Source: Myxococcus landrumus (GTDB taxonomy: Bacteria > Myxococcota > Myxococcia > Myxococcales > Myxococcaceae). Taken from it: a stretch of DNA of 64,000 nucleotides. The notes under the pieces were generated by a model. The model was not told where the DNA came from and searched no databases. It saw only the letters and a program-made list of their open reading frames with translations. The stretch is from positions 1,996,001-2,060,000 of the forward strand of contig NZ_CP071091.1 in the NCBI RefSeq assembly GCF_017301635.1. Direction: 5' to 3'. Below are positions 3,033-37,776 of this stretch, piece after piece (within the stretch, counting starts at the first letter, position 1; the number at the start of each line of letters is the position of its first letter). A program made the position numbers and the translations under genes.

Positions 3033-5000
3033 CGCCTTGATCTTCGCGGCCGGCGGGGACAGCGCGTACCACGCGGTCCGGAACGCCTTCAGCTCCCGCA
3101 GACCCGCCGGGTGGCGGCCCAGCGCGGGGGCCATGGTGACGGGCAGGCCCAGCTTCTTCTCGATGGCCTTCGCCGCGTTGAGCTCCAGCTTGCGGCGGTT
3201 CTCGCACTTCTCGCAGGTGGACTTGGGGCCCACGCGGTTGACGAGCACCCGCTCCACCGGAAGCTTCTTGTCCTTCAGGTACTCCACCACCCGCTCCGTG
3301 CGGGCCGCGGCCAGGTCCTCGCCGCGCGTGACGACCACGAAGCGCGCTTCCGTCGGAGACGCCAACGCCTCCTCGAAGCGCTTCGCGTGCTTGATCATCC
3401 CGGCGATGTCGTCCGCCAGGTCTCCCAGCCCCTTGGCGCGGTGCTTGTTGAGCACCGTGTGCAGCGCGCCCAGCCACGTCTTCGCCGTCTCCGCCAGCTC
3501 CACCACGCGCACGGAGTTCACCACCGGCGACGAGTCCACGACGATGCGCTTGAACCGCTCCTGGACCAGCGCGTCCGTGAGCACGCTCATGGCCGCCAGC
3601 TCGTCGATGCCCGGTGGCGCGCACTCCAGCAGGTTGCGCAGGTAGAGCAGATCCGCGGGGACCTCGCTGCCCGTCTTGGGCGCGCCCTCGAAGGCCTTCT
3701 CCGCCTTCTCCTTGAGCCGCTTGCGCAGGGCGTTGAACCAACCCGCCATGTCCAGCTCGCGCGCGTAGAGGCCCTTGGTGCCCTTCACCTGCGTCTCGGT
3801 GTCCGTCAGGCGGCTCTGCAGCACGTCCGATAGCGAGTGCGCGGGGTCGGTGGAAATGAGGAGCACCGGCCCCTCCTTCTCCGTGAGCGTCACCGCGGCG
3901 GCGGCCGCGCAGGAGCTCTTGCCCACGCCACCCTGACCGACGAAGAAGATGAGCCGCGTGGGAGGCAGCGGCGGCGCGGCGATGGGCGGCATGGACGGCG
4001 CGCGGACCAGGGCCGGAGGACCCTCCGCCGCGGCGAACTCCAGCGCCTTCGTCTCCTTGCCACCCGCCCACGCCTTGGCGAACGCCGCGATGCCGTCCAG
4101 CCCGCGCGGCGCCAGCTCCCGGCGCCCCAGCAGGTGCACCGGCACGGACTTGTCCAGCGCCTGGAACTTGCGGACGTGCGGCGCCTGAAGACCCCGGCGG
4201 CCCTGGCACGCGGGACAACCTTCGCGATCCTCCACCTGGTTGACGACGATCTCCGTCACCGGAATCCCGCGCTCGCGCAGCTGCGTGAAGAGCATGCGCG
4301 TCTGCGCCTCGGGGACAGGCTCGGCCAGCGCCACCAGGTGGAAGGCCGTGCGCGCGGGGTCCTTCAGCAGCCCCAGCAGCTTCTCCGCCTTCTGCCCCAG
4401 CGCTTCCAGGAAGCCCGGCTCGGCCGCGGCGGCCTCCGCCTTCTTGCCCTTCCCGGAGGTCGGCGCGGGCTTGTCGGCCCCCGCGCGCACCAGACCCAGG
4501 AACTTGCGCAGCCCCACGGGCAGATCAAACAGCCGCAGCGTGTGGCTCGTGGGCGAGCAGTCCACGATGATCCGGTCGAACTCCTTCTCCTTGCCCTCCA
4601 GCAGCTCCACCACGTGGAAGAGCCCCACCAGCTCCTCCAGCCCGGGGACGGCCTGCTGGTACAGCGAGCCCAGCTCCTCCTCGGAGAAGTGGGTGCCCTT
4701 CGCGGCGGCCTTCTTCAGCGCGGGCAGGTACTGCGCCAGGAACGGCTTGAGCAGCGCGGCAGGCTCCACCTCCAGGCCCCAGACGCCACCCTCTCCCTTG
4801 CCCGGCACCAGCTTCGAGGGCTTCGCGGAGAGCTTCTTCTTCACCAGGTCCGACAGGGAGCGCACGGGGTCCAGTGAGACGAGCAGCACTCGCTCCTTCG
4901 GGACCTCCTCCGACAACCGCAACGCGTACGCCGCCGCGAGCGTGGTCTTGCCAACCCCGCCCTTGCCGCCGAAGAAGTGAAGAACTCGCGCGTCGCTCAT
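3027..5000 (-). CDS. Two-domain ArsA/Get3-family ATPase with a CxxC motif in each half
   Basis: A 657-residue tandem ATPase. Each half has a deviant Walker A: FGGKGGVGKTT at residues 10-20 and GQGGVGKSS near 356-364. Each is followed by a switch region (SLDPVRSLSD; STDPAHSLSD) and DCSPTSHTLR or DSSPVVNSVR. This layout matches ArsA, the arsenite pump ATPase. However, each half also has a CxxC (CPAC near 263 and CEKC near 594), the motif that in Get3/TRC40 holds zinc at the dimer interface. No arsB, arsR or arsD is nearby, so an arsenite role is not supported by context. A Get3-like protein-targeting or chaperone role is possible but unproven. The ATG at 5000 is preceded by an AAGGAAGG ribosome-binding site. 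The 276 bases upstream hold no gene. Confidence 0.85.
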   Translation of the reverse strand: MSDARVLHFFGGKGGVGKTTLAAAYALRLSEEVPKERVLLVSLDPVRSLSDLVKKKLSAKPSKLVPGKGEGGVWGLEVEPAALLKPFLAQYLPALKKAAAKGTHFSEEELGSLYQQAVPGLEELVGLFHVVELLEGKEKEFDRIIVDCSPTSHTLRLFDLPVGLRKFLGLVRAGADKPAPTSGKGKKAEAAAAEPGFLEALGQKAEKLLGLLKDPARTAFHLVALAEPVPEAQTRMLFTQLRERGIPVTEIVVNQVEDREGCPACQGRRGLQAPHVRKFQALDKSVPVHLLGRRELAPRGLDGIAAFAKAWAGGKETKALEFAAAEGPPALVRAPSMPPIAAPPLPPTRLIFFVGQGGVGKSSCAAAAAVTLTEKEGPVLLISTDPAHSLSDVLQSRLTDTETQVKGTKGLYARELDMAGWFNALRKRLKEKAEKAFEGAPKTGSEVPADLLYLRNLLECAPPGIDELAAMSVLTDALVQERFKRIVVDSSPVVNSVRVVELAETAKTWLGALHTVLNKHRAKGLGDLADDIAGMIKHAKRFEEALASPTEARFVVVTRGEDLAAARTERVVEYLKDKKLPVERVLVNRVGPKSTCEKCENRRKLELNAAKAIEKKLGLPVTMAPALGRHPAGLRELKAFRTAWYALSPPAAKIKAA

Positions 5001-30742: not shown

Positions 30743-31636
30743 CTAGCTGACGACGGGAAGTGCGAAGCCCGCGGATCCCTGGGTCGCGGGCTTTGTCACG
30801 CCCGCCGCCTCGTTCAACCGGCCCGAGCGGAACGGCTCCAGGTCCAGCGACACGAACTTGAACCCCAGCGCCAGGAAGGCGGTGTTGATCCGCTGGCGCA
30901 CGTCCGCGACGAGGAACTTCTCGTATTCCTCCGCGGCCACCTCCAGGCGCGCCACCTCGCTGTGGTAGCGCACGCGAAACTGACGGAAGCCCAGCTTGCG
31001 CAGCTCCGACTCAGCCGCGGCGATCTGCAACAGCCGGTCCCGCGTCACCGCCGTGCCATACGGGATCCGCGACGCCAGACACGCCATCTGCGGCTTGTCC
31101 CAGGTGGGCAGCCCCAGCGCCTGGCTCCACGCGCGGATCTCCTCCTTCGTCAGCCCCGCCTCCGCCAGCGGCGACACCACCGCGTGCTCGCGGGCCGCTT
31201 TGTGCCCCGGCCGGTGGTCCTTGAAGTCATCCGCGTTGAAGCCATCCAGCACCACCGCCAACCCCAGCTCCGCGCGGCGGGCCTCGCAGAGGTCGTACAG
31301 CTCCGTCTTGCAGAAGTAGCAGCGGTTGGTGGGGTTGGCCGCGTACTGCGGGTTGGCCAGCTCGTTGCTGCCGATGACGACGTGCCGCGCCCCCAGGCGC
31401 TCCGCCAGCTCCCGCGCCTCCTGGGCCTCCTCGGGCGCGACCGACGCCGACAGCGCCGTGAGCGCCAGCGCCCGCTCGCCCAGCTCCTCCACCGCCACCT
31501 TCAACACGAACGTGGAGTCCACGCCCCCCGAGAACGCCACCAGCGCACTGCCATGGGCACGCAACGCGGCGCGCATCGCCTCCAGCTTCGGGCGCGACGA
31601 CTCACACAGGGCCTGGATTCGCTCGGGGCTCAGCAT
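30743..31636 (-). CDS. larE: LarE-type ATP-dependent sacrificial sulfur transferase
   Basis: LarE uses ATP to activate a carboxylate of a pyridinium adduct and donates sulfur from its own cysteine while building the nickel-pincer nucleotide of lactate racemase. The 297-residue product has the PP-loop SGGVDST (36-42) and RCYFCKTELY. It also has CLASRIPYG with Cys186, matching the sacrificial-cysteine position of LarE. No larA, larB or larC is in the window, so it is an orphan here. It may serve a different nickel or sulfur reaction, or its partners may lie elsewhere. It sits downstream of cysC with 101 bases between. Confidence 0.85.
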   Translation of the reverse strand: MLSPERIQALCESSRPKLEAMRAALRAHGSALVAFSGGVDSTFVLKVAVEELGERALALTALSASVAPEEAQEARELAERLGARHVVIGSNELANPQYAANPTNRCYFCKTELYDLCEARRAELGLAVVLDGFNADDFKDHRPGHKAAREHAVVSPLAEAGLTKEEIRAWSQALGLPTWDKPQMACLASRIPYGTAVTRDRLLQIAAAESELRKLGFRQFRVRYHSEVARLEVAAEEYEKFLVADVRQRINTAFLALGFKFVSLDLEPFRSGRLNEAAGVTKPATQGSAGFALPVVS

Positions 31637-31737: not shown

Positions 31738-32517
31738 TCAGCGGCCCTTGCCCTTCGCGGACTTCTTCGCCGCGGGCGTCGGCTTCGCCACCCGAGCCGC
31801 TCGCGTGGCCGGACGCGACTTGGCACCCTTGTCCGCCTTCGCCGCCTTGGCGGCCTTGGGCTCCTCCGCCCGGCGCGCCTTGGCCCCGCCCTTTTCGGCC
31901 TTCTCAGCCTTCTCGGCCTTCTCACCCTTGGCCGGCAGGGGGTTCGCCTTCATCTTCTTGCCGGTGATGGTCTTCAGCTCCTCCGTGGTCATGTAGCCAA
32001 GGTCCAGGAGGGACTGGAAGATCTTCGCCGCGCCGTCCTCCACCGACTCCACGTCGGAGTGGATGGTGACCTCGGGCGAGTTGGGCGGCTCGTAGGGCTC
32101 GGTGATGCCCACGAAGTTGGGGATCTCCCCGTTGAGCGCCTTCTTGTAGCGACCGGTGCTGTCGCGCTCGATGAGCTTCTCGGTGGGGCAGTCGACGTAG
32201 ACCTCGACGTACCGGCCGATGCTCCGGCGGTTCTCCTCGCGCTTCGCCTTGTACGGGCTCACGCACGGAACCAGCGCGGCCACACCATTGCGCGTCAGCA
32301 CGTTGGCGACGTAGCCCAGCCGCCCGGCAATCGTGTTGCGCTCATCCTTCGAATCCCCCAACCCCGCCCACAGCTCATCGGAGAGCTCGCCCTCATCGAG
32401 GATCTCCACATTGCGGCCAACCTGACGGAGCCGCGCCGCGATGTAGGCGGCAGTGGTGCTCTTCCCTGTACCGGACATGCCGGTCAGCCAGAGGGTGAAT
32501 CCAGTGTTGGAGGCCAT
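31738..32517 (-). CDS. cysC: Adenylylsulfate (APS) kinase with a Lys/Ala-rich tail
   Basis: A 259-residue APS kinase that makes PAPS from adenylylsulfate and ATP. The P-loop is TGMSGTGKST (12-21), followed by LDEGELSDELWAGL, RLGYVANVL, VSPYKAKREENRRSIG and YEPPNSPEV, typical of CysC. The catalytic part ends near residue 195. A basic, low-complexity tail (about 196-259) rich in Lys, Ala and Glu repeats (KAEKAEKAEK and PKAAKAAKADKGAK) resembles histone H1-like tails and is unusual for CysC. No cysD, cysN or sat is adjacent. The ATG at 32517 follows a promoter-like TTGTCA-18-TATAAC at 32596-32625. Confidence 0.87.
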   Translation of the reverse strand: MASNTGFTLWLTGMSGTGKSTTAAYIAARLRQVGRNVEILDEGELSDELWAGLGDSKDERNTIAGRLGYVANVLTRNGVAALVPCVSPYKAKREENRRSIGRYVEVYVDCPTEKLIERDSTGRYKKALNGEIPNFVGITEPYEPPNSPEVTIHSDVESVEDGAAKIFQSLLDLGYMTTEELKTITGKKMKANPLPAKGEKAEKAEKAEKGGAKARRAEEPKAAKAAKADKGAKSRPATRAARVAKPTPAAKKSAKGKGR

Positions 32518-32595
32518 AAGGGTTTTCAACTCCCTGCGTCCGGAGCGCTTCTTGCAGGCCGCGTGAGGACGCCGCAGATCCAGAAGATGCGCGTG

Positions 32596-32710: not shown

Positions 32711-33139
32711 TCAGACCCTGCGCGTCTGAAAATCGCCACCCCTCCACTCATACTCGGACACCCAGACAACACGTCCCCGGTGTACGGATGCGATGAGATA
32801 GGAAACTCCCGGCAGGAGCGGATGCCCTGAGGGGGCAGCCTGGGCGCGGTCCTCGGCGGAGAAGGTGGGGGGCGCGTCCACATGCGAGTGGAACACGCTC
32901 GCCACCTGCTCTCCGCGTGACTCCGCCTGGAGGCAGAGCGACAGCCAGTCCTCGGGCGCGAAGGCGTAGGCCCGAGTGGGACATGGCGAGGCATTGCGCA
33001 GGGGGCACACGCGCCACGAGTCGCCTTCGGGACCTCGCAGGATCACGCCGCATCCCTCCTGTGGGTAGCTGCGCTCCAGATGCTGGAGGATTTCCTCGCG
33101 CACGGATTCCGGCCAGCGTGAATCTGGCCACGTCGTCAC
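32711..33139 (-). CDS. JAMM/MPN+ metallopeptidase (M67 family)
   Basis: A 142-residue zinc peptidase of the JAMM family. These include Mec+ (which removes residues from the sulfur carrier CysO), bacterial deconjugases and eukaryotic deubiquitinases. The complete JAMM signature is present: Glu28 (YPQEGCGV), then H84-S-H86-x7-S94-x2-D97 (FHSHVDAPPTFSAED). The GTG start at 33139 overlaps the stop of the upstream pseudo-E1 gene (GTGA), with GGAG in range, so translation is coupled. It is the last gene of a five-gene unit with E1-like, TusA-like, ubiquitin-fold and pseudo-E1 genes. Likely substrate: the Gly-Gly protein or its conjugates. Confidence 0.9.
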   Translation of the reverse strand: MTTWPDSRWPESVREEILQHLERSYPQEGCGVILRGPEGDSWRVCPLRNASPCPTRAYAFAPEDWLSLCLQAESRGEQVASVFHSHVDAPPTFSAEDRAQAAPSGHPLLPGVSYLIASVHRGRVVWVSEYEWRGGDFQTRRV

Positions 33140-33777
33140 GGCGCCGAGGGCTCCTGGCGCGACGCGCACCGTGAGCACCGCCGCAGCTCCATCTCCTCCA
33201 AGGTGCCAGGAGGGATCAGCCAGCGGCCGCCCAGTGAGGGCCCCAGCCCCAACCGGAGCCGCTGGAACACCACGGCGCCCAGGGCTCCCAGCGCCCCACC
33301 CAACGCGCCGTCCGGGGGTGATCCGAGGTGCCGCACCGTCTCGCCGAAGCACCAGACACAGCCCTCGGCGCCACGGAACACGACGCCCGCCCGTGCACCG
33401 TCTCCGCAGAGCGCGACCCAGGGAGCCTCGCCACTCCAGGCCGAAGGCAGCTCCGCGATCATTCCACCGCGGCCCTCCGGGTTGGCCGCGTCCGGGTTCA
33501 GCGCGGGAGCCTCCCGGGCCAGCGTCGAGGCCACCGGCTGTCCCACGTCACTGGCGGACACCAGGAAGCCCGGAGACCAGGGGCCCATGGTCAGCGAGCC
33601 CACCCCCGCGACGGGAGTGCCTCCGCCCACGAGATATGCCGCCGCCGTCAGCCCGGAGGCGCCCGTCGCATCCACGCGCGCGCCGCCGGACAGGAGCGCC
33701 TCCTGGCCACGCCCTCCCACTTCGCGCAGGAGGATCTGCCGGGAGTAGCGGAGAATCTGATCTTCACGCAGGGCCAT
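33136..33777 (-). CDS. Degenerate E1-like (ThiF/MoeB/HesA family) protein retaining the RYSRQ helix
   Basis: A 213-residue protein that aligns with the ThiF/MoeB fold from its N-terminus (EDQILRYSRQILLREVGG; R10, R13). The nucleotide-binding GxGGxG is replaced (TGASGL, 38-43). The NLxRQ arginine and the conserved lysine are gone (the place reads DVGQPV), and the catalytic Cys region is absent. Two CxxC pairs remain (C140/C143 and C201/C204), so the zinc site may be intact. It therefore cannot be an adenylating enzyme alone, but it keeps the arginine that in MoeB reaches across to the neighbour's ATP. The complementary loss in the neighbouring active E1 suggests a heterodimer. It lies 6 bases after the ubiquitin-fold gene and overlaps the JAMM gene. 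Confidence 0.85.
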   Translation of the reverse strand: MALREDQILRYSRQILLREVGGRGQEALLSGGARVDATGASGLTAAAYLVGGGTPVAGVGSLTMGPWSPGFLVSASDVGQPVASTLAREAPALNPDAANPEGRGGMIAELPSAWSGEAPWVALCGDGARAGVVFRGAEGCVWCFGETVRHLGSPPDGALGGALGALGAVVFQRLRLGLGPSLGGRWLIPPGTLEEMELRRCSRCASRQEPSAP

Positions 33778-33783
33778 GCGTCA

Positions 33784-34056
33784 TCAACCTCCCGCCATCG
33801 CGGGGATGAGGGTGAGGCGATCCACGTCCTTCACCGGGGTGTCCAGGGCCTCCAGGGCGCGGATGTCCTCGTCGTTGAGGAAGACGTTGACGTAGCGCCG
33901 CACGGCGCCGTGCTCGTCCAGGAGCTTCACGCCGATGCCCGGATAACGAGCGTCCAGGTCCTTCAGCACCTCGCGAACAGTCCCTCCGGAGGCCGTCACC
34001 TCCGCCTGGTTGCGCGTCAGCGGGCGCATCAACGTGGGGATCCGGATCGTCGCCAT
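33784..34056 (-). CDS. MoaD/ThiS/CysO-type ubiquitin-fold protein ending in Gly-Gly
   Basis: A 90-residue beta-grasp protein. It carries the MoaD-like pattern TVREVLKDLDARYPGIGVKLLDEHGAVRRY in two helices with strands, then VNVFLNDEDIRALEALDTPVKD and the C-terminal LTLIPAMAGG. The gene ends immediately after the Gly-Gly, so no processing is needed before activation, although a JAMM peptidase is encoded downstream. CysO, MoaD and ThiS carry sulfur as a C-terminal thiocarboxylate. The context of E1-like, TusA-like and JAMM genes supports either a sulfur carrier or a protein modifier. The ATG at 34056 is 7 bases after the TusA-like stop. Confidence 0.9.
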   Translation of the reverse strand: MATIRIPTLMRPLTRNQAEVTASGGTVREVLKDLDARYPGIGVKLLDEHGAVRRYVNVFLNDEDIRALEALDTPVKDVDRLTLIPAMAGG

Positions 34057-34063
34057 GGCGCCC

Positions 34064-34303
34064 TCACCTCCCCTGCTTCCGCAGCACCAGCCGGTGGGTG
34101 CCATCCCCACGCGCATCGAGAGAGACGACCTCATGTCCCTCCTCGCGCGCGCTGCGGGGCACGTTCTTCAGGGGCTCGGAGCCTCGGAGGATGATCTCCA
34201 ACAGGGCCCCCGCCTCCAGCACCTCCAGCCGGAGCTTCGTGCGCACGTAGGTCATGGGACAGACCTCGCGGGTGATGTCCAGCGTCGCCACGGGCTCACT
34301 CAT
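34064..34303 (-). CDS. TusA-family sulfur-transfer protein
   Basis: A 79-residue TusA/SirA/YeeD-fold protein, about the family's usual length. It has the conserved Cys-Pro at residue 15 (REVCPMTYVRTKL), though the usual CPxP is CPMT here, as in the YeeD-like branch. TusA proteins relay persulfide sulfur between enzymes. Placed between an active E1 and a ubiquitin-fold protein, it is a likely sulfur donor for a thiocarboxylate, or an acceptor. It begins 12 bases after the E1 stop and ends 7 bases before the ubiquitin-fold start, so it belongs to the same operon. Confidence 0.88.
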   Translation of the reverse strand: MSEPVATLDITREVCPMTYVRTKLRLEVLEAGALLEIILRGSEPLKNVPRSAREEGHEVVSLDARGDGTHRLVLRKQGR

Positions 34304-34315
34304 GCTCCACGCCCC

Positions 34316-35083
34316 TCATCGCGCGCATGCGCCCTCCTCACCCGGAAACACGGGCACGTCGGTGACGGCACAGCCGGGACACTCCGGCGCACGCTCGACG
34401 CGGGTGCGCCGCCCCAGCAGCGTGAGGCCCTCCAGCACATGCAACGTGGCCTCTCCGGGAACGCGCCGCGAAGCCCCCGTCAGGAGCTCCAGCACCAACA
34501 GCGCCTGCACCGCGCCCACCAGGCCCGCGAGCGAGCCCAGCACCCCGGCTTGCGCGCACGTGGGAACCGCGTCTGGCGCGGGCGGCGTCTCATAGAGACA
34601 ACGAAGGCACGGCCCACCCGGCTCCACCCGCATCGCCTGGCCCTGCATCCGCAACACGCCGCCGTAGACGAGCGGCACGCCCGTGAGCACCGCCACGTCC
34701 GAGAGGAAGAACTTGGTCAGCACCCCATCCGTCGCGTCGATGACAGCGTCGTGCGCGCGAAAGAGCCCCTCCACGTTGTTCGCGTCCACCCGCTCGGGCA
34801 GCGCCTCCGTCGACAGGGCCGGGAAGGCTCGCGCGAGGCCCGCCACCGCGGACTCCGCCTTGTTCCGCCCCACGTCCCCCGGCCGGTGCCACAACTGCCT
34901 CGGCAGGTTCGTCACATCGACCTGGTCGGGGTCCGCCAGCGTCAAGTGGCCGACACCCGCCTGCGCCAACGCCAGCGACGCGGGACAGCCAAGCCCACCG
35001 GCTCCCACGATGAGCACCCGGGAGCGCTCGATACGGGAAGCATGGGGAATACGAGGATGGTGATGCTCTTCTGGACCGTGCAT
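34316..35083 (-). CDS. Active-site-complete E1-like enzyme (MoeB/ThiF family) without the N-terminal RYxRQ helix
   Basis: A 255-residue adenylating enzyme. Visible elements are GAGGLG (27-32), DPDQVDVTNLPRQLWH (Asp51/53, Arg62), GRNKAE (Lys75), DATDG (117-119), CLRC (C159/C162), PTCAQAGVLG with candidate catalytic Cys176, and C235/C238 (CPGC). All residues needed for ATP binding and adenylation, plus the zinc site, are present. What is missing is the usual N-terminal LRYSRQI helix: the protein starts only about 25 residues before GAGGLG, and the open frame further upstream does not contain it. That helix is present in the pseudo-E1 two genes downstream. It is the first gene of the unit, divergent from a lipoprotein gene. 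Confidence 0.9.
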   Translation of the reverse strand: MHGPEEHHHPRIPHASRIERSRVLIVGAGGLGCPASLALAQAGVGHLTLADPDQVDVTNLPRQLWHRPGDVGRNKAESAVAGLARAFPALSTEALPERVDANNVEGLFRAHDAVIDATDGVLTKFFLSDVAVLTGVPLVYGGVLRMQGQAMRVEPGGPCLRCLYETPPAPDAVPTCAQAGVLGSLAGLVGAVQALLVLELLTGASRRVPGEATLHVLEGLTLLGRRTRVERAPECPGCAVTDVPVFPGEEGACAR

Positions 35084-35725: not shown

Positions 35726-37009
35726 ATGGATTCCAATCTCGCCCTGGGCGAGGAGACCCCGGCCAATGACCTCCGCGCCCGCGTGCGAGAGGTCCTCTCG
35801 CGCCGCAAGCTGACGGACAGCGTCTCCACCGAGCAGGCCACCGCGTCGTGGGAGCAGGACCGGTTCGTCGCCCGGGCCCGCGCCCTCTTCTACGCGCGAA
35901 TGATGTTCCTCACGCTGGGCCTGCTCATCCTCGCCGTGCCCACGTGGAGTGGCTACTTCGGGCTCACCGGCGCCTTCTCCTTCCTCGGCTACTTCACGAT
36001 GCTGCTCTACAGCGTCGCGAACCTGCTCGTCATCGACCACCCCAAGGCCGGCCGCTGGGTGACGTACACCACGCTGTGCCTGGACCTCGTCATCCTCGTG
36101 GTCCTCATCGCCAAGCCCCAGGTGGGCGGCGGCCTCCAGAGCCCCCTGCTGGCCACGCAGCTGCTGTTCACCACCCTCTTCTCCATCCTCTACCCCAAGC
36201 CGCTCGCCATCCTCCCGCCGCTGCTGGCGCTGCCCATCACCACGCGGCTGGACCTGCTGCTCAACCGCTCCGTGACGGCCGTGGAGCTGCTCACGCTGCT
36301 CTGGTACCTGGCGCTCAACTTCATCATCGTCTACGTGCTCGTGTACCTGAACGAGCGCGAGGCCGCCGCGCACCGCGAGGTCGTCGCCCTTCAAGGGGAC
36401 CTCAAGGAGCTGGCCGTCGTCGAGGAGCGCAACCGGCTGGCGCGCGAGATTCACGACGGCCTGGGCGCCTCGCTCTCGTCGATGATCATCCAGGCGGAGT
36501 ACATCCTGAACCTCGCGCGTGAAGAGGGCCTGCGCTCGGAGATTCGCGAGCTGAAGGTCACCGCCGAGGAGTCCATCGAGGAGCTGCGCCGCAGCCTGCG
36601 CATGATGCGCGAGGACTTCGAGCTGGCCCAGGGCCTGGAGGACTACGCGAAGACCTTCAACGAGCGCACCGGGCTGAGCATCCAGTTCGAGCGCACCGGC
36701 CTCCAGCGCAAGCTGTCACCCGACTCGCAGCTCGCCCTGTTCCGCATCCTCCAGGAGTGTCTCTCCAACGCCGTGAAGCACGCCGAGGCGAAGCTCGTGC
36801 AGGTGAAGCTCGACTACACCGAGGACCACGTGCACCTCATCGTCCGCGACAACGGCAAGGGCTTCGACCCGCAGCGCACGCCGCGCGGACACTACGGCCT
36901 GCTGAACATGCGTGAGCGCGCCATGAAGCTCAACGGACAGCTCATCGTCGATTCGTCACCGGGCGCAGGTGCCCAGGTGGCCTTCTCCCTCCCCTGCTCT
37001 CCCCCTTGA
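35726..37009 (+). CDS. NarL-type sensor histidine kinase (HisKA_3), membrane
   Basis: A 427-residue kinase. An N-terminal cytoplasmic segment (1-50) is followed by about six transmembrane helices (about 55-215). The dimerisation helix carries His243 (LAREIHDGLGASLSSM), a HisKA_3 signature. The ATPase domain has SNAVKHAEAKLV and RDNGKGFDPQRT. No extracytoplasmic sensor domain is visible, so sensing probably occurs in the membrane. The NarL-type regulator follows immediately, its GTG start 12 bases after this stop. Family and pairing are clear; signal unknown. Confidence 0.92.
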   Translation: MDSNLALGEETPANDLRARVREVLSRRKLTDSVSTEQATASWEQDRFVARARALFYARMMFLTLGLLILAVPTWSGYFGLTGAFSFLGYFTMLLYSVANLLVIDHPKAGRWVTYTTLCLDLVILVVLIAKPQVGGGLQSPLLATQLLFTTLFSILYPKPLAILPPLLALPITTRLDLLLNRSVTAVELLTLLWYLALNFIIVYVLVYLNEREAAAHREVVALQGDLKELAVVEERNRLAREIHDGLGASLSSMIIQAEYILNLAREEGLRSEIRELKVTAEESIEELRRSLRMMREDFELAQGLEDYAKTFNERTGLSIQFERTGLQRKLSPDSQLALFRILQECLSNAVKHAEAKLVQVKLDYTEDHVHLIVRDNGKGFDPQRTPRGHYGLLNMRERAMKLNGQLIVDSSPGAGAQVAFSLPCSPP

Positions 37010-37020
37010 CCGGAGCCTCC

Positions 37021-37776
37021 GTGGACGCCCCGCAGCCCCCCACCTCTCCCGCGCAGTCCCCCATCCGCGTCTTCGTGGTGGAAGACCAGACCAAGATCCT
37101 CAAGAACCAGCTGCGCCTCTTCGAGGGCCACCCCGACATCGAAATCGTCGGCACCGCGCTCTCCGGTGAAGCCGCGATGGAGGAAGTCCCCCGCGTCATG
37201 CCGGACGTCCTCCTGCTCGACCTGGGCCTGCCGCGCATGAGCGGCATCGACGTGACCCGCGAAGTCAAAGCCGTCTATCCGAAGATTGAGATCCTCATCT
37301 TCACCATCTTCGACGAGGAGGACAAAGTCCTCGAGGCCGTGAAGGCGGGCGCATCCGGTTACATGCTCAAGGGCTCGCCGGTCGACAAGATCATCGAGGC
37401 CATCAAGGAGGTCCGCGCGGGAGGCACCGTCATCCAGCCCAACCTCGCGCGAAGACTGCTCCGCCACTTCCGCGTGGACCCGGACACCGCGCCCGCCCCC
37501 GCCGTCGCGCCTCCGCCCGAGGCCGCCTCGGAGCCCGCCGCGTCCACCGAGAACCCCACCACCGAGGAGCCCCTGCTCAAGCCGCTCTCGGACCGCGAGC
37601 GCGAAATCCTCCAGCTCATCGCCAAGGGCGTCTCCAACAGCGAGGCCGCGCGACTGCTCAACCTGAGCAAGGCCACCATCCGCACCCACCTCGAGCACAT
37701 CTACCGGAAGCTCGAGGTGACGAACCGCGTCGAAGCGGTGACCGAGGGCATCCGCAAAGGCCTCATCTCCGTCTGA
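37021..37776 (+). CDS. NarL/FixJ-type response regulator with a Pro/Ala-rich linker
   Basis: A 251-residue regulator. The receiver carries Asp67 (VLLLDLGLPRMSG) and Lys of YMLKG. An unusually long Pro/Ala/Glu-rich linker (about 160-185) precedes the LuxR-type helix-turn-helix (LSDREREILQLIAKGVSNSEAA, then ATIRTHLEHIYRKL). The GTG at 37021 has GGAG about six bases upstream and is preferred over a TTG at 37006 that overlaps the kinase stop. It is the partner of the preceding kinase. Targets are not visible. Confidence 0.9.
   Translation: MDAPQPPTSPAQSPIRVFVVEDQTKILKNQLRLFEGHPDIEIVGTALSGEAAMEEVPRVMPDVLLLDLGLPRMSGIDVTREVKAVYPKIEILIFTIFDEEDKVLEAVKAGASGYMLKGSPVDKIIEAIKEVRAGGTVIQPNLARRLLRHFRVDPDTAPAPAVAPPPEAASEPAASTENPTTEEPLLKPLSDREREILQLIAKGVSNSEAARLLNLSKATIRTHLEHIYRKLEVTNRVEAVTEGIRKGLISV

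Follow-up and report, generated by a model that had tools for sequence, protein, structure and literature searches.

Two neighbouring genes of Myxococcus landrumus that probably encode the halves of one heterodimeric E1

Eukaryotic E1 enzymes pair one active adenylation domain with one degenerate domain, both derived from a MoeB-like ancestor, and they come either as heterodimers (SAE1-UBA2 and NAE1-UBA3) or in fused form (UBA1, UBA6 and UBA7). In contrast, MoeB, ThiF and MoeZR are homodimers, in which each protomer carries both an ATP site and the helix that bears the so-called arginine finger. Here we consider a stretch of 64,000 nucleotides from Myxococcus landrumus (positions 1,996,001 to 2,060,000 of contig NZ_CP071091.1; hereafter the window), which belongs to a genome of 10.37 Mb on a single contig, with Myxococcus, Corallococcus and Pyxidicoccus as its nearest relatives in a search with short exact peptide patterns. 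One minus-strand operon of the window holds two E1-like genes, and each of the encoded proteins has lost what the other has kept. On the strength of sequence comparison and one structure model, we think it probable that these genes encode the two halves of a single heterodimeric E1 for the Gly-Gly ubiquitin-fold carrier encoded in the same operon. Myxobacteria thus appear to have cut a one-piece, self-pairing E1 into a protein that does the chemistry and a helper of which decay has left hardly more than a reaching arm.

How does this compare with what has been described? In UBA1, a sulfate bound at the site of the gamma-phosphate is stabilized by Arg57, and the situation in MoeB is similar (PMC12355090). 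The myxobacterial pair differs from the eukaryotic E1s in being bacterial, in having neither catalytic-cysteine half-domains nor a ubiquitin-fold domain for E2 binding, in its place within a sulfur-metabolism operon that has no E2, and in the far deeper erosion of its inactive half, which goes down to 88 residues. With MoeB, ThiF and MoeZR it shares the fold, the adenylation residues, the CxxC pairs and a sulfur carrier as the likely substrate; the difference is that the ATP site and the finger helix now reside on different proteins. An asymmetric E1 is already on record in bacteria, namely BilD of the antiviral BilABCD conjugation system, whose inactive and active adenylation domains form a pseudodimer (PMC11354881), and the entries 8tz0 and 8tyz are recorded as showing a bacterial E1–E2–Ubl complex. 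BilD, however, has everything in one chain, including a Cys domain, and is accompanied by an E2, whereas the myxobacterial system consists of two genes, without an E2, in the neighbourhood of TusA, APS kinase and LarE. The original prediction had held that this division of labour was undescribed in bacteria, and in view of BilD that claim has to be narrowed to the two-gene split: in the literature searched, which left many subscription papers outside, we found no description of a bacterial E1 divided between two genes, or of an inactive half so eroded. Within the E1 superfamily there is also the yeast ct6A synthase Tcd1-Tcd2, a heterodimer in which the arginine finger of Tcd1, Arg59, completes the active site of Tcd2 (PMC13139853); unlike the myxobacterial pair, it acts on tRNA, Tcd1 retains most of its ATP-site residues, and mutation of the finger had little effect.

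The catalytic half is a protein of 255 residues (34316 to 35083, minus strand), an E1-like adenylyltransferase that matches the Pfam ThiF profile (PF00899) with 205.6 bits against a cut-off of 28.1, the match beginning only at profile position 16. It is a member of the ThiF/MoeB/E1-like superfamily, with a Rossmann adenylation domain and a GxGGxG loop, and its Arg62, Lys75, Asp119 and Cys176 align with Arg73, Lys86, Asp130 and Cys187 of Escherichia coli MoeB (1jw9), so that the full set of adenylation residues claimed for it is indeed there. It is a plain ThiF domain, without the catalytic Cys domain of a ubiquitin-conjugating E1, and no E2-like family was found among the operon proteins scanned by profile. 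The N-terminal RYxRQ helix is equally certainly missing, as had been claimed: no such motif lies upstream in its own frame, nor does either of the remaining frames contain one in the 250 nt upstream, and the ATG at 35083 is conserved as a start among the Myxococcus relatives. We extended this reading to 110 operonic E1 loci, drawn from the order and from a single genome beyond the class, with duplicates in the public record included, and an RYxRQ-like motif upstream of GxGGLG was found in none of the 110, either in frame or in any frame within 250 nt. A frameshift or a misannotated start was considered as the cause of the missing helix and is ruled out by the absence of RYxRQ from all three upstream frames. 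Among 20 canonical MoeB-type controls from the same genomes, 19 have the helix, and the remaining one reads RHARQ, a near miss. Of the 110 loci, 106 have the four adenylation-site residues unaltered. The E1s of two others (L116 and L125) depart at the cysteine position only; in MoeB and ThiF that cysteine forms no thioester (PMC13139853).

Its putative partner, the pseudo-E1, has 213 residues (33136 to 33777, minus strand) and is the mirror image of the catalytic half. Its N-terminus aligns to MoeB and ThiF, with RYSRQ (residues 10–14; 33736 to 33750, minus strand) falling on RYNRQ or RYSRQ, which makes Arg13 the equivalent of MoeB Arg14, the arginine finger. Both CxxC pairs (CVWC and CSRC) are present as well, and neither the sequence nor the alignment yields a GxGGxG loop, an NLxRQ motif, the lysine or the catalytic cysteine; on all of these points the original prediction was right. 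The protein scores only 11.6 bits with the ThiF profile, below the cut-off of 28.1. Our case for its descent from the ThiF superfamily is therefore made not by this score but by the Anaeromyxobacter-type intermediates, together with the fact that the partners form one clade: those intermediates reach 60.7 bits with PF00899, yet are without the equivalents of MoeB Arg73, Lys86 and Cys187, which are missing from all 61 long partners.

What the partners have kept is as telling as what they have lost. They range in length from about 232 down to 88 residues, and 23 divergent examples (88–232 residues) have no invariant columns in common other than Arg10, Arg13, Gln25 and Gly53. At L083 and L122 Arg10 is replaced and Arg13 retained, and the equivalent of the MoeB Arg14 finger is retained in every partner that bears the helix; the CxxC pairs and a C-terminal helix (ALGALxxQRxxLG) are also retained in most. 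Median ratios of nonsynonymous to synonymous substitution (dN/dS) are 0.21 for the pseudo-E1 and 0.19 for the E1, and 0.074 for the first 35 residues of the pseudo-E1, so that the pseudo-E1 is under purifying selection as strong as that on the E1 and strongest in the region of the helix. The smallest partner, at L126, is reduced to an RYARQ helix, a short segment, one CxxC and one C-terminal helix; it is possible that these 88 residues represent a minimal activator of an E1.

The two genes also travel together. Counting one locus per genome, the N-terminus of the E1 could be read in 87 genomes, and with L124 set aside (its contig ends directly after TusA) 86 are assessable. In 84 of these, a partner with the helix lies directly downstream in the same operon as the E1, as a separate gene (79 were found by script, and L082, L105, L112, L149 and L150 by reading the loci). 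A strict automatic search for partners passed over L068, L083, L112 and L122, and when their frames were read by eye the finger arginine was there in all four. The two exceptions, L094 and L096, come from one genus. Their partner genes lack the entire helix, and their E1s have exchanged Arg62 for His or Gln, Asp119 for Gly, Cys176 for Gly or Met and, in one of them, Lys75 for Arg; TusA is missing from both operons, and the ubiquitin-fold and JAMM genes are still there. This is joint decay of the system, which, the two being relatives, may have been one event. Because 84 of 86 genomes have both and the exceptions have lost both, the fate of the helix in one gene is tied to that of the ATP site in its neighbour: they persist together or disappear together. 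It had been asked whether loss of the helix from the E1 and of the catalytic residues from the partner always coincide, and they do among the 110 E1 loci and the 61 long partners; an E1 still without its helix in the absence of a pseudo-E1, which would have spoken against the idea, was seen in no intact system among the assessable genomes. In a tree, the partners form one group (support 100/98) and the operonic E1s another (93/79), both apart from canonical MoeB; the partners are long branches whose placement relative to canonical MoeB is unsafe, and we use only the separateness of the two clades. Since the pattern recurs throughout the order, and since the pseudo-E1 is under purifying selection, the split is not a matter of chance.

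A structure model adds to this picture. At L042 the genes for E1 and partner lie in the same frame, and the pair was modelled there with AlphaFold2 as one chain, with stops read as Gly and about 175 out-of-frame residues serving as linker. The model has a predicted template-modelling score (pTM) of 0.64; 383 of its 639 residues have a predicted local distance difference test score (pLDDT) of at least 50, and the 256 of low confidence are mostly linker. Two domains of about 220 residues that were placed independently of each other should, we would expect, give a pTM clearly under 0.64. In VIA-align, both halves of the model match UBA7, UBA1 and UBA6 over 358–383 residues, at 3.3–4.0 Å and with Z of 22–25, and both halves match the bacterial E1 8tz0 over 324 residues with Z of 21.5, as against 189–206 residues aligned with MoeB alone. 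There is thus moderate support, from this model, for the two halves docking like the active and inactive adenylation domains of UBA1, UBA6 and UBA7.

Taken together, these data suggest a simple division of labour. The 255-residue half would bind ATP and adenylate the C-terminal glycine of the carrier, and the pseudo-E1 would stand in for the second protomer of a MoeB-type dimer, supplying the N-terminal helix that the E1 has lost, so that its Arg13 might reach the gamma-phosphate of the ATP held by its partner. The genetic case for a split E1 is strong and comes from direct observation: each protein has lost what the other has kept, the two genes co-occur strictly and decay jointly, selection on them is purifying, gene order is conserved, and natural fusions join the E1 to other products of the operon. 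The proposal that the two proteins form one enzyme is supported by co-occurrence, joint decay and one docking model. Several observations do weigh against it. MoeB and ThiF are reported not to require the finger arginine, and TcdA has none (PMC13139853), which makes the invariance of Arg13 in the partners a puzzle rather than a given. In the L042 model the RYSRQ helix has a pLDDT below 50, and the position of Arg13 at the ATP is not confidently placed; the tether, and what the network knows of UBA1, could also have favoured the familiar arrangement. A second model, of the divergent pair at L063, reached a pLDDT of 50 and a pTM of 0.46, with structural matches to the E1 domain only and the partner unplaced. 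Of the complex that had been predicted, then, the docking in the manner of a eukaryotic active/inactive pair stands in the one good model, and the approach of Arg13 to the ATP does not emerge from either. Finally, the ubiquitin-fold gene is missing from the operon in some lineages, and the window's own operon has no cysteine synthase.

Might the pseudo-E1 be doing something else? One could imagine that the heterodimer forms, with the pseudo-E1 as a structural or regulatory scaffold that holds, for example, TusA or JAMM near the E1, the arginine being kept for folding or dimerization rather than for contact with ATP. A finger that is reported to be dispensable in MoeB and ThiF and absent from TcdA (PMC13139853) would fit such a role, and so would the CxxC pairs and C-terminal helix that most partners retain; we nevertheless consider it unlikely, as the Arg13 helix is the most constrained part of the protein, survives even in the 88-residue remnant, and is lost only where the ATP-site residues of the E1 are lost too. 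A homodimer of the helix-less E1 that is sufficient unto itself, with a separate job for the pseudo-E1 (to bind the carrier, for instance, or some target), is in our view very unlikely: it is true that all of the adenylation residues lie within the E1 and that TcdA functions without a finger (PMC13139853), but among the assessable genomes every intact E1 of this clade has its partner beside it, helix-less E1s and helix-bearing partners make two coherent clades, and AlphaFold2 pairs the two unlike halves. That the pseudo-E1 is just a decaying duplicate without function we find barely credible, even though it has lost its entire ATP site, varies from 88 to 232 residues and is decaying in the two genomes of the exceptional loci (G077 for L096 and G079 for L094), because its dN/dS is close to that of the E1, and far lower in the helix region, and because it has been kept beside the E1 in 84 genomes. 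A split heterodimeric E1 remains the account that we prefer.

The rest of the operon gives an idea of what such an enzyme might be for. On the minus strand of the window, the E1 is followed by a TusA-like sulfurtransferase of 79 residues with a CPMT motif (34064 to 34303; PF01206, 65.6 bits), a ubiquitin-fold sulfur carrier of 90 residues with a C-terminal Gly-Gly (33784 to 34056; PF02597, ThiS, 57.1 bits; 55.5 bits with the SAMP1 model, whose cut-off is 60), the pseudo-E1, and a JAMM/MPN+ (Prok-JAB) peptidase of 143 residues (32711 to 33142; PF14464, 77.5 bits), whose HSH-x10-D motif can be read in the sequence and whose GTG start codon overlaps the 3′ end of the pseudo-E1 gene. The profile matches thus agree with the gene content originally proposed. 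Next come, on the same strand and syntenic with the operon, a CysC-like APS kinase (31738 to 32526; PF01583, 139.9 bits) and a LarE-type PP-loop sulfur transferase (30743 to 31636; TIGR00268, 317 bits). The arrangement E1, TusA, ubiquitin-fold protein, pseudo-E1, in places cysteine synthase, JAMM, APS kinase and LarE holds throughout the order, apart from losses. Upstream of the operon on the opposite strand (35726–37776), two overlapping open reading frames look like those of a histidine kinase and of a response regulator of the LuxR/NarL type, possibly a pair that regulates the operon.

These contents point to protein-thiocarboxylate sulfur metabolism. Gene sets of the same kinds were recognized by Iyer, Burroughs and Aravind as operon class 4e, with ThiS/MoaD, JAB, E1, SirA/TusA, APS kinase and other sulfate-assimilation genes, and SirA/TusA was predicted to stand in for rhodanese in such operons (PMC1779556); that text, as searched, contains no second, degenerate E1 and no Myxococcus, and places Anaeromyxobacter only in class 4b. 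The CysO-CysM-Mec+ system of Mycobacterium likewise combines a ubiquitin-fold carrier, an E1 (MoeZR), a cysteine synthase and a JAMM protein, and several relatives have all four in one operon (L067, L072, L074, L080, L117–L122, L126 and L147). The mycobacterial E1 is, however, a one-piece MoeZ-rhodanese (PMC3227635), whereas here TusA takes the place of the rhodanese and the E1 is split. The cysteine synthase gene lies between partner and JAMM in several lineages (PALP, 192 bits; the best NCBIfam models are cysKM/cysM, below their cut-offs); the window's operon, unlike CysO-CysM-Mec+, has none, and the best homologues elsewhere in the genome are at most 38% identical. Natural fusions of E1 with TusA (L123 and L126) and of E1 with the ubiquitin-fold protein (ThiS; L117) suggest that TusA donates the sulfur and that the Gly-Gly protein is the substrate. 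Given these fusions, the CysO-CysM-Mec+ precedent (PMC3227635) and the SirA/TusA prediction (PMC1779556), it is likely that the split E1 adenylates the carrier, that TusA transfers sulfur and that the thiocarboxylate is then put to use, with JAMM setting the product free. In this scheme TusA would most likely pass sulfur to the acyl-adenylate and so form a thiocarboxylate, which in the relatives with a cysteine synthase could become a carrier–cysteine adduct from which JAMM would release cysteine, as in CysO-CysM-Mec+; LarE may be part of the same route. In a group of Archangium-like loci from metagenome-assembled genomes (L063–L066, L077, L079, L082 and L087) the ubiquitin-fold gene is missing, and E1, TusA, pseudo-E1 and JAMM are still there; in three genomes without an operonic carrier (G131–G133), only two other ThiS-fold proteins were found. 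As some lineages are without the carrier gene and the window's operon is without cysteine synthase, product and substrate may vary.

Where did the split come from? The same pair of E1 and partner is found at L147, whose genome falls outside the class; within the phylum, the split is therefore old. Beyond Myxococcota, the search used short exact peptide patterns only, so that the system may be more widely distributed, and nearly all of its matches are named Myxococcota; the single exception, labelled Comamonas sp. KCTC 72670 (L039, BNCN01000004.1), carries a Myxococcus-like operon with 83% identity in the E1 and 77% in the pseudo-E1; at these values a wrong label or contamination of the record seems a better explanation than a spread into Comamonas. 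At L148 (G166, about 3846–4842), a one-piece E1 with both helix and full ATP site adjoins a TusA gene shortly before the contig ends; it is possibly the unsplit ancestral arrangement, a second E1 beyond the end of the contig being still conceivable. With rather less assurance than we have in the split itself, we lean towards the view that a heterodimeric E1 would have arisen in bacteria independently of the eukaryotic E1s (no sequences of which were in our tree) and survived in several grades of reduction, from an inactive paralogue that is still of full length, with about 232 residues, to a cofactor-like subunit of 88, which consists of the arginine-finger helix, one C-terminal helix with cysteines and little else.

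It is an open question of evolution how the asymmetric E1 of eukaryotes came from a symmetric, MoeB-like homodimer. The first step, a subfunctionalization that leaves one half active and makes the other its helper, seems to have been taken here by bacteria, and living lineages show several stages in the erosion of the helper. Such helpers are easily overlooked in annotation, since the pseudo-E1 genes fall below the curated cut-off of ThiF. The disputed role of the arginine finger also becomes a clean experiment in this system, with finger and ATP site on separate polypeptides that can be separately purified, mixed and mutated. In splitting their E1, the myxobacteria appear to parallel the way in which plants, fungi and animals built their own two-part E1 enzymes.

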